A stretch of 32,025 nucleotides of DNA from Candidatus Nomurabacteria bacterium (GTDB lineage: Bacteria; Patescibacteriota; Minisyncoccia; Phycocordibacterales; UBA9973), in assembly GCA_943350875.1 (NCBI GenBank), contig CALRAL010000001.1, positions 132,992 to 165,016 on the forward strand. Direction: 5' to 3'. The position numbers and the translations under genes are program-made. Numbering within the stretch: position 1 is the stretch's first letter; each line of letters starts with the position of its first letter. Below are positions 27,349 to 29,393 of this stretch, piece after piece. The notes below the pieces were generated by a model that worked only from the letters and a program-made list of their open reading frames with translations, was not told the origin of the DNA and searched no databases.

Positions 27349-27386
27349 AATAAAAGCTTATATTTAAAGGCTTAATCGTAAAGTCC

Positions 27387-27415
27387 TTGACTTTTAAACT
27401 TGGTTGTGCTATACT
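27387..27415 (+). promoter_or_regulatory. Classical -35/-10 promoter
   Basis: TTGACT, a 17-nt spacer and TATACT preceded by TG-C (27387-27392, 27410-27415) form the only textbook two-box promoter I noticed. Unlike the others, it gives an ~70-nt leader before ATG 27495. Confidence 0.75.
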
Positions 27416-27434
27416 TCTATTGAATAAGTTATTT

Positions 27435-27488
27435 TATAATAATTCCCGAGGTCGCTGAAAATCGGTTCAAGAGTAAGCATTATTAAAA
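27435..27488 (+). promoter_or_regulatory. Folded leader of the gene at 27495
   Basis: TAATAAT near 27437 pairs with ATTATTA near 27478, and CCGA pairs with TCGG inside. No known riboswitch consensus is recognised. Confidence 0.35.
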
Positions 27489-27494
27489 AAATTT

Positions 27495-27746
27495 ATGGAC
27501 GAAAAAGTCCTAACCGAGCAAGAAGAGCAAGTAATTCTTAGAAAAATAGTGAAAGCTCTTTTTAAAAGAAAAGAAATCTGTTTTGCTGATGCAAAAAGAG
27601 ATGTAGGAAACATGTCCTCTGAAATAAAGGAAGACAATCAGAAAGTAGCTATGGTTATGGGAAAGCTATTAGCTGAGATTGTTTCTGAATCTTTTAAACC
27701 CGAAAATTACGAAAAAGGTATCGCCAAGTATAATGGCGGTCACTAA
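27495..27746 (+). CDS. Small hypothetical helical protein
   Basis: This 83-aa acidic/basic protein of unknown function starts MDEKVLTEQEEQVILRKIVKALFKRKE. It has one cysteine, no membrane segment and no recognisable motif, and is predicted by eye to be mostly alpha-helical. It is driven by the strongest-looking promoter in the window, with a folded leader, and is followed by a structured RNA. High expression would fit a small regulatory or nucleoid-type protein, but this is only inference. Confidence 0.6.
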   Translation: MDEKVLTEQEEQVILRKIVKALFKRKEICFADAKRDVGNMSSEIKEDNQKVAMVMGKLLAEIVSESFKPENYEKGIAKYNGGH

Positions 27747-27767
27747 TTTAGTAAATTGTAAAAATAA

Positions 27768-27773
27768 TAAAAT
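27768..27773 (+). promoter_or_regulatory. Possible -10 of the structured RNA
   Basis: TAAAAT is placed so that transcription would begin near 27780, where the folded region starts. Confidence 0.35.
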
Positions 27774-27779
27774 TTAGTT

Positions 27780-27955
27780 CTGGTGGAGTTTACTCCCTAA
27801 ACGGGTAATTATTCCTCGGCGAAAGCTTTAGGATAGAACAAGAACCGTTTCCTCACTAAATAATTATTTTAAACGCTGGTAATTCTTCTCCAGTGATTGG
27901 CTAAGCCAAGAAGAAATTAACTCAACCCTTTATATTTGTATAAAGGGTTGTTTCT
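27780..27955 (+). ncRNA. Unidentified structured RNA with intrinsic terminator
   Basis: About 175 nt of non-coding, highly foldable sequence. Hairpin GGAG/CTCC lies at 27785-27796. A stem AACGG/CCGTT (27800-27804 with 27845-27849) encloses a GAAA-tetraloop hairpin (27814-27832). Hairpin CGCTGG/CCAGTG (27874-27895) has a 10-nt loop, TAATTCTTCT, that is complementary to AGAAGAAATTA at 27909-27919, an H-type pseudoknot or alternative stem. TTGGC/GCCAA (27897-27909) lies in between. It ends in a strong terminator. Size and terminator would suit 6S RNA, but I cannot see its conserved core. It lacks RNase P, SRP and tmRNA signatures. Confidence 0.6.
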
Positions 27956-27960
27956 TTTTT
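27924..27960 (+). terminator. Strong intrinsic terminator of the structured RNA
   Basis: An 11-bp perfect stem, AACCCTTTATA/TATAAAGGGTT, with a TTTG loop is followed by a run ending in six T. Confidence 0.88.
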
Positions 27961-28019: not shown

Positions 28020-28044
28020 ATGACATAGGAGTTTCCTATGTCAT
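28020..28044 (+). repeat. 25-bp perfect palindrome before gltX
   Basis: The 11-bp arms ATGACATAGGA/TCCTATGTCAT have a GTT loop. The 3' arm CCTATGTCAT recurs at 28077-28086 over the gltX start codon, so the 5' arm could pair with either. Confidence 0.7.
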
Positions 28045-28067
28045 TTTGAAACTTAGTATATTTAAAG

Positions 28068-28073
28068 TATAAT
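28068..28073 (+). promoter_or_regulatory. Leaderless-type promoter of gltX
   Basis: A perfect TATAAT ends 6 nt before ATG 28080. Confidence 0.65.
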
Positions 28074-28079
28074 ATCCCT

Positions 28080-29393
28080 ATGTCATCAAAAGTGGTAACA
28101 AGATTTGCGCCGAGTCCGACAGGACTTTTGCATTTAGGTACTTATAGGACTGCTATTTTTTCCTATCTATATGCCAAAAAGAATAATGGCACTTTTGTAC
28201 TTCGAATAGAAGATACAGATAAAGAACGCTCAAAAAAAGAATATGAAGAAAATATAATAGAAAGCTTGAAATGGTTGGGACTTGATTATGATCAATTTTA
28301 TCGTCAATCGGATAATTTAGATAGGCATAAATTTTATTTAGAAAAAATGATAAAAGAAGGCAAGGCTTATATTTCAAAAGAAGAAGCAAAAGATGGTACA
28401 GGCGAGATAAAAGAACTTGTAAGATTTAAGAATCCAAATATAGATATTACTTTTCATGATGAAATAAAAGGAGAAGTAAAAATGAATACAACTGATTTAA
28501 ATGATTTTGTGATTGCTAGGAATTTAAATGAACCACTTTTCCATTTAGCGGTAGTGATAGATGATTTTGAAGAAGGAATCACGCATGTGATACGAGGTGA
28601 AGACCATGTTTCAAATACTCCTAGGCAGATTCTCATACAAAGAGCCATAGGTGCTCCGACTCCAATATACGCGCATTTACCACTTGTTTTGGGTGCTGAT
28701 AAATTAAAACTCTCAAAAAGGCGAGGAGCTTTGCCTATCACATCATATAAAGATATGGGTTTTCTACCAGAAGCAATTTTAAACGGTGTTGCTTTTGTAG
28801 GCTGGAATCCAGGCACAGACAAAGAGATATTTACTCATGATGAATTAGTAAAAGATTTTGATTTATCAAAAGTGCAAAAAAGCCCAGCTGTTTTTAATGA
28901 AGAAAAATTAAATTGGTTCAACAAAGAGCATATGAAGCTTTTGTCGACAGAAGAAGTAAATAAAAATATTTTGGAGAATTTGCCAGAGAATATGCGCAAT
29001 GTGAAACTCGTGCCAATAATTTTTGAACGTATCACAAAATGGGGAGATATTAAGAATATGGTTTCAGTGGGGGAGCTTGATTTCTTCTTTAAACAGCCGG
29101 AATATGATAAAAGTAAATTAATTTATAAAAATGTTCAAAGTTCGACTTTGAACATATCAGAAAATATAAATAAAGCTATTTCAGTATTAGAAGAATTGAA
29201 TGAAAATAATTTCACAAAGGAAAATGTCAAAGAAGTTTTGATGAAAATAGCTGATAGCTTAGAGAGTAGGGGAGAGTTACTGCATCCTGTGCGGTTTGCC
29301 CTCTCTGGGCTAGATAAGTCTCCAGATCCATTTGTGATAGCAGAAGTTTTAGGTAAAAATGAAACATTGGCTCGCTTACAAAAAGCTATTTAG
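28080..29393 (+). CDS. gltX: Glutamyl-tRNA synthetase
   Basis: This 437-aa class I synthetase has RFAPSPTGLLHLGTYRTA (HLGT motif 18-21), LRIEDTDKERS and VIRGEDHVSNTPRQILIQRAIG. The KMSKS-type loop reads KLSKRRG (near residue 211). It is a little shorter than the usual 465-490 aa, the loss lying in the C-terminal anticodon-binding part. Whether it is discriminating cannot be told. Its last 35 nt overlap the M23 peptidase start. Confidence 0.93.
   Translation: MSSKVVTRFAPSPTGLLHLGTYRTAIFSYLYAKKNNGTFVLRIEDTDKERSKKEYEENIIESLKWLGLDYDQFYRQSDNLDRHKFYLEKMIKEGKAYISKEEAKDGTGEIKELVRFKNPNIDITFHDEIKGEVKMNTTDLNDFVIARNLNEPLFHLAVVIDDFEEGITHVIRGEDHVSNTPRQILIQRAIGAPTPIYAHLPLVLGADKLKLSKRRGALPITSYKDMGFLPEAILNGVAFVGWNPGTDKEIFTHDELVKDFDLSKVQKSPAVFNEEKLNWFNKEHMKLLSTEEVNKNILENLPENMRNVKLVPIIFERITKWGDIKNMVSVGELDFFFKQPEYDKSKLIYKNVQSSTLNISENINKAISVLEELNENNFTKENVKEVLMKIADSLESRGELLHPVRFALSGLDKSPDPFVIAEVLGKNETLARLQKAI

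Follow-up and report, generated by a model that had tools for sequence, protein, structure and literature searches.

Patescibacteria make up a large part of bacterial diversity, have tiny genomes and few cultured representatives, and their regulation is barely known. In type III toxin-antitoxin systems (ToxIN, CptIN, TenpIN), an RNA repeat array lies upstream of a nuclease gene. The locus described here resembles these systems in that an RNA and a small protein share one unit and pseudoknots are possible, but it has a single three-way junction located 3' of the gene for a three-helix protein without a nuclease match. OLE RNA, which acts with OapA-type partner proteins, is a noncoding RNA that requires a dedicated small partner for its function (PMC11332333). 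A dedicated small partner protein is also proposed here; however, OLE RNA is far larger, occurs in Gram-positive extremophiles and shows no sequence or structure match to this locus, and, judged by its sequence, the partner protein described here is no membrane protein. TnpB/reRNA (RAGATH-18) loci show stable co-occurrence of a structured RNA with a protein gene directly upstream (PMC11061315), an arrangement also found here, but TnpB is a large nuclease, whereas the protein described here has approx. 75 aa and lacks a nuclease domain, and a guide region was not seen. TIGR-Tas is an RNA-protein system of parasitic bacteria in the same radiation and requires a guide array and a Nop-like Tas protein (PMC12045711), neither of which is present here. 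In the open-licence literature, we found no description of the RNA or the protein reported here, and no structured RNA described for Patescibacteria other than the TIGR guide RNAs.

The stretch of DNA analyzed (32,025 nt; hereafter the window) comes from a 646 kb genome, the closest named relatives of which, based on gltX, are Candidatus Nomurabacteria, and contains, in this order, murG, an 83-aa ORF, the RNA and gltX. The ORF and the RNA belong to a single short transcription unit that runs from a promoter through the small ORF and a three-way-junction RNA to a terminator. The features of this unit and its flanks are as follows:

27359-27369, no strand: left one of the two direct repeats (11 bp, TATATTTAAAG) that flank the unit
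27387-27415, + strand: promoter TTGACT-17-TATACT with an extended -10 TGC, 10 of 12 consensus matches (consensus scan)
27495-27746, + strand: 83-aa small ORF encoding the partner protein (recognized by a profile built without the window protein)
27761-27870, + strand: closing helix P1, pairing 27761-27768 with 27863-27870 and 27772-27778 with 27855-27861 (predicted fold)
27782-27855, + strand: conserved RNA core, a three-way junction (match of hold-out model R3, E = 1.5e-12)
27785-27796, + strand: P2 hairpin GGAG-UUUA-CUCC (two-sided changes at all 6 model pairs)
27797-27810, + strand: near-invariant strand CUAAA-N-GGGUAAUU (alignments A4 and A6)
27802 (N) and 27803-27804 (GG), + strand: pair with 27845-27847 (alignments)
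27811-27834, + strand: P3 hairpin with a GAAA loop at 27821-27824 (covariation at all 10 pairs)
27835-27846, + strand: near-invariant strand, AGAACAAGAACC in the window and AGRAYAAGAACC in its family form (homolog alignments)
27874-27919, + strand: 3' pseudoknot domain (sequence; kept in G106, L146)
27874-27879 with 27890-27895, + strand: P4, with loop 27880-27889; P5 at 27897-27909; pseudoknot strand at 27909-27915 (extending to 27919)
27923-27960, + strand: intrinsic terminator, a 12-bp stem with a 4-nt loop (27923-27950) followed by a U tract
28057-28067, no strand: right copy of the 11-bp direct repeat TATATTTAAAG, flanking the unit

A first-pass annotation had placed a structured RNA at 27780-27955. 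The RNA is borne out by homologs with strong covariation, but this span is too narrow, as P1 begins at 27761 and the functional unit covers 27387-27960. No ORF of at least 40 aa covers 27780-27955, as had been stated, and the GNRA hairpin and the strong terminator recognized at that stage correspond to P3 and to 27923-27950 with its U tract, respectively. Most homologs have a sigma-70-like promoter 5' of the small ORF (judged by eye), and 33 of 43 homologs have a terminator within 110 nt 3' of the RNA. A weak match to the DUF805b RNA (RF02914) lies outside the RNA, in the 5' leader of the 83-aa ORF (27445-27479, + strand); this identity was rejected, with 24.2 bits against a gathering cut-off of 35.6. 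A loop GCU and a downstream AGC in this match retain, by a matched change, the pairing of the consensus GCC and GGC (by eye), and an Rfam scan found no such match in the leaders of the homologs.

Blastn of the RNA against 100 relatives returned short chance matches only. A covariance model of the single window sequence (R1) led to three genomes of the same genus, i.e., G106 (E = 3.6e-5), G004 and G110, which share with the window CUAAA-N-GGGUAAUU, a variable hairpin and AGAACAAGAACC-N'; the family consensus is CUAAA-N-GGGUAAUU, a variable hairpin and AGRAYAAGAACC-N'. The pattern GGGTAATT-N8-38-AGAACAAGAACC was present in 13 of the 397 genomes of the order, as compared to 0 matches for the reversed control. 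A refined model built from 15 sequences (R2) matched 38 of these 397 genomes, in 28 of 179 genera, with the lowest three matches (G126, G370 and G422; E > 0.003) being uncertain. R2 also matched 6 of the 80 genomes of the genus (one of these loci, L197, reads like coding sequence) and, in a sample of the phylum, 8 of 380 genomes, 4 of them outside the order; among these four, G691 is confident (E = 3.6e-9), G719 is plausible and two are likely false matches to coding sequence. By their appearance, the R2 matches L197, L200 and L201 were rejected as coding-sequence false positives. A model built without the window (R3) scored the window RNA at 58.6 bits (E = 1.5e-12), while its second-best match in the same genome had E = 0.33. 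The RNAs are approx. 100-180 bases long. Near-matches to the conserved strands elsewhere in the window's own genome were few, and none was traced to a known RNA.

Folding energy including the terminator was exceptional (z = -3.2), but without the terminator z was -1.0 to -1.4 and 10-16% of shuffled sequences folded as well; the terminator is thus the sole element exceptional by thermodynamics, and proof of structure needed relatives. In an alignment of 15 sequences (plain MAFFT, structure written by hand), 84.9% of the cells pair as compared to 66.9% in shuffles, and two-sided changes occur in 67 cells as compared to 22.9 +/- 4.2 in shuffles and at most 31 in slid controls. Among 44 distinct copies aligned with the covariance model, 90.4% of cells pair and two-sided changes occur in 263 cells (78 +/- 9 in shuffles; at most 64 in slid controls) and at 20 of 21 pairs, an alignment that leans toward the structure because it was fitted to it. 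RNAalifold, run on the same alignment, independently arrived at P2, at the N-GG/CC-N' helix and at the base of P3. At N-N', 19 copies have AU, 10 CG, 8 GC and 3 GU, and the P1 flanks pair in nearly all homologs (mean duplex energy -10.7 kcal/mol vs. -6.5 kcal/mol for mismatched flanks). The window RNA combines the conserved strands with a covarying P3, the P2 hairpin and the closing P1, and it is a member of the family on these grounds. Overall, covariation among the aligned sequences shows an RNA family with a defined structure, the conserved core of which is a three-way junction around a GNRA hairpin.

Searches of Rfam gave no family match at the RNA in the homologs; in the whole window there was no match at the gathering threshold, and the RNA region had only terminator-like or unrelated weak matches. 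The first-pass annotation had proposed that an Rfam scan and covariation in related genomes would settle identity, and by that test the absence of a match together with covariation makes this a new RNA family. The resemblance to 6S RNA (RF00013) suggested at that stage was not upheld. The window RNA is similar to 6S RNA in size (approx. 180 nt) and in being single copy, but no covariance-model match was found in the window, either at gathering or up to E 10, and none was found in the window's genome, while the same search matched controls in 6 of 14 genomes. The covariation supports a three-way-junction core instead of the 6S rod with a large central bubble and paired ends, and the distribution is accessory and patchy. 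Other housekeeping identities were also rejected, as the tmRNA of this genome is located at C2:78855-79253 and an RNase P RNA motif occurs elsewhere (C2:166423). That the RNA is a 6S or other housekeeping RNA too diverged for Rfam would fit its size and the lack of a 6S RNA found in this genome; given the fold, the patchy distribution and the presence of tmRNA and the RNase P motif elsewhere, we consider the chance of this negligible.

The first-pass annotation had further drawn attention to pseudoknot potential. The loop complementarity it noted is real: the 10-nt loop at 27880-27889 (UAAUUCUUCU) of the hairpin 27874-27895 is complementary to AGAAGAA(A)UUA at 27909-27919, with 7 contiguous Watson-Crick pairs (27883-27889 with 27909-27915) that leave a 3-nt crossing loop. 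A pseudoknot of a similar kind occurs in 9% of shuffles. In G106, 2 of the 7 pairs differ from those in the window, both on both sides (UUCUUCU/AGAAGAA in the window vs. UUUCUCU/AGAGAAA in G106), and pairing in P4 and P5 is likewise kept, which is good evidence for conservation, drawn from two sequences. Among the family members examined, however, the P4/P5/pseudoknot domain is evident in the window and G106 only; the pseudoknot is a variable 3' extra outside the conserved core. The pseudoknot strand is also predicted to be able to pair with the terminator U tract, so alternative states may be possible.

The small gene upstream of the RNA encodes a protein of 65-90 residues in the family as a whole. 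A profile HMM built without the window protein had a single match among 4518 ORFs of the genome, i.e., the 83-aa ORF (E = 6.6e-7), and the window thus shows, as its relatives do, a homologous small ORF directly upstream of the RNA. AlphaFold2 predicted three helices for a family member (pLDDT 90.5); its model of the window protein was also helical but weaker. The protein had no significant match in Pfam, NCBIfam, PHROGs, PADLOC or PDB, and Foldseek found nothing at E <= 0.001, with recurrent ribbon-helix-helix matches at E > 0.4; PDB sequence matches to designed repeat proteins were rejected as short helical stretches of 18 residues. The 83-aa protein has diverged too far for tblastn, which returned no match in the genus, phages, genome_contigs or viral contigs. 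By homology searches, then, the RNA and the protein are both new families, absent from every library searched, and the novelty therefore lies in homology. Longer proteins (127-159 aa) that appear to contain two copies of the small domain were seen at L157, L161, L181, L187 and L189.

Of the 33 copies with an exactly located core, 30 are preceded in the same orientation by a homologous small ORF, the end of which lies 12-64 nt 5' of GGGUAAUU. The exceptions are L184, which has only a C-terminal remnant of the ORF but whose genome carries another copy that is complete; L190, where the RNA occurs without the small ORF; and L161, where the upstream ORF is not recognized by the profile. Across the order, both components occur in 29 genomes, the protein alone in 11 and the RNA alone in no more than 4, and 273 genomes lack both (P = 8e-28; Fisher's exact test). 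Two protein-only loci (L238 and L240) have a diverged RNA, and a third (L237) has a terminator and no RNA. These data show a near-obligate linkage of the RNA to the protein; the gene that the first-pass annotation had recorded merely as a small neighbor is a conserved partner. Persistence of the RNA without an intact ORF (L184 and L190) indicates that the RNA can outlast the protein. One genome (G089; L202) has two RNA copies approx. 5 kb apart, one of which retains an RNA core of 60 bits next to a small ORF reduced to a C-terminal remnant.

Constraint on the internal loop of the RNA is strong. Its near-invariant blocks are 13 and 12 nt long, and pairwise identity is 63% for the RNA core vs. 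29% for the protein, a contrast between nucleotides and amino acids that is indicative only. This bears on whether the RNA might act in cis, as a 3' UTR that serves as a receptor for the preceding protein (or a metabolite) and sets the stability, termination or translation of its own mRNA in a feedback loop. Such a role would fit an RNA that is always co-directional with the ORF, lies 12-64 nt after the stop codon and just before the terminator, and shares one promoter with one protein; however, the RNA is more constrained in sequence than the protein that would read it, and RNA-only copies persist, so we regard cis action as unlikely. No consistent base-pairing partner of the RNA was found in the 5' leaders of the homologs, and a long-range pairing of the leader with AGAACAAGAACC, attractive in a few members, was rejected (overall mean 4.9 vs. 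4.6 nt).

We tentatively favor, at somewhat short of an even chance and on comparative grounds, the reading that the RNA and the small protein form a small accessory ribonucleoprotein that acts in trans, with the RNA as its conserved active part. A short mRNA would carry a 65-90-codon ORF for the three-helix protein, followed by the three-way-junction RNA ending in the terminator; the RNA would then either be released from the mRNA 3' end by cleavage or stay attached. A conserved cell component would recognize the near-invariant internal loop (GUAAUU facing AGRAYAAGAA), and the small protein, which evolves fast, would bind the RNA as a dedicated partner. A stronger version, which we consider doubtful, is that this is a new class of ribonucleoprotein confined to Patescibacteria, consisting of an RNA that has a three-way junction and a near-invariant internal loop, and of the three-helix protein dedicated to it. 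It would act in trans on a conserved cell part, with the ribosome, RNA polymerase or RNA decay as candidate targets, by a mechanism unseen in other bacteria. With 44 distinct copies aligned, a protein partner at hand and the conserved positions precisely placed, the RNA class is defined well enough for tests of binding, processing and target to be designed at once.

The unit is accessory (about 10% of genomes), chromosomal and stand-alone. Searches of phages and plasmids for the unit were empty, and a phage-borne RNA was rejected, as pattern matches in viral contigs (L149 and L242-L246) fell in AT-rich or coding sequence with scores at chance level. In G110, the unit lies directly downstream of the tmRNA gene (L148, 801-1183), and tRNA genes were seen near the unit in several other genomes. 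A small two-part cassette with such a patchy occurrence (38 of 397 genomes in the order and 6 of 80 in the genus), with insertion sites that are unrelated across chromosomes and, in the window, a flanking direct repeat, might also be a module resembling toxin-antitoxin or defence systems, with the RNA and the protein as mutual antagonists. We consider this quite unlikely, since neither a significant PADLOC match nor a nuclease-like fold was found, the RNA is unrepeated and follows the ORF, and phage or plasmid copies were not found. A type III toxin-antitoxin identity in particular was rejected (single RNA, 3' of the ORF; no significant Pfam or PADLOC match).

The gap between murG and gltX is 735 nt in the window as compared to approx. 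15-60 nt in most relatives; others hold unrelated inserts, and none of these junctions has an RNA copy. The flanking 11-bp direct repeat (an equally long repeat occurred in 2 of 500 shuffles) encloses the unit such that removing the 698 bp between the repeats would leave a gap of approx. 33 nt. Together with gltX having its own promoter, the enlarged gap and the repeat indicate that the RNA lies in an inserted or acquired unit and is not a gltX leader; gltX adjoins it only incidentally. A riboswitch or T-box-like leader that controls gltX through the terminator would be suggested by a structured RNA and terminator upstream of an aminoacyl-tRNA synthetase gene. However, the promoter of gltX ends 6 nt before its start codon, a T-box riboswitch (RF00230) was rejected for lack of an Rfam match and of conserved downstream genes, and each lineage has different genes 3' of the unit, often in the opposite orientation, which speaks against control of a neighbor in cis. 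Contradicted by this comparative context, a leader function is highly improbable.

An insertion with a direct repeat, in which an ORF is followed by a folded element, might also point to a DNA-level element, i.e., to a mobile cassette whose recombination site (attC-like, for instance) follows the small ORF. In attC sites, the core RYYYAAC/GTTRRRY lies in one hairpin, and the sites occur in arrays beside an integrase. The unit described here has its own promoter and terminator, its copies are single rather than in arrays, and the covariation, with its G-U pairs, matches an RNA three-way junction; we consider a recombination site very unlikely.

The gltX promoter (TTGAAA-16-TATAAT; 28046-28080) is strong, and its position suggests that the gltX mRNA is leaderless. 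Just 5' of it lies a perfect 11-bp inverted repeat with a 3-nt loop (28020-28044), possibly an operator or a terminator-like element. Unrelated inserts have repeatedly expanded the murG-gltX junction in Paceibacteria (L097, L101, L105, L113, L115-L117, L123, L124, L126, L128 and L136); several of them share a small protein of secreted type (MEPQSG..KAWQWVVT..), while others encode regulators or phosphatases.
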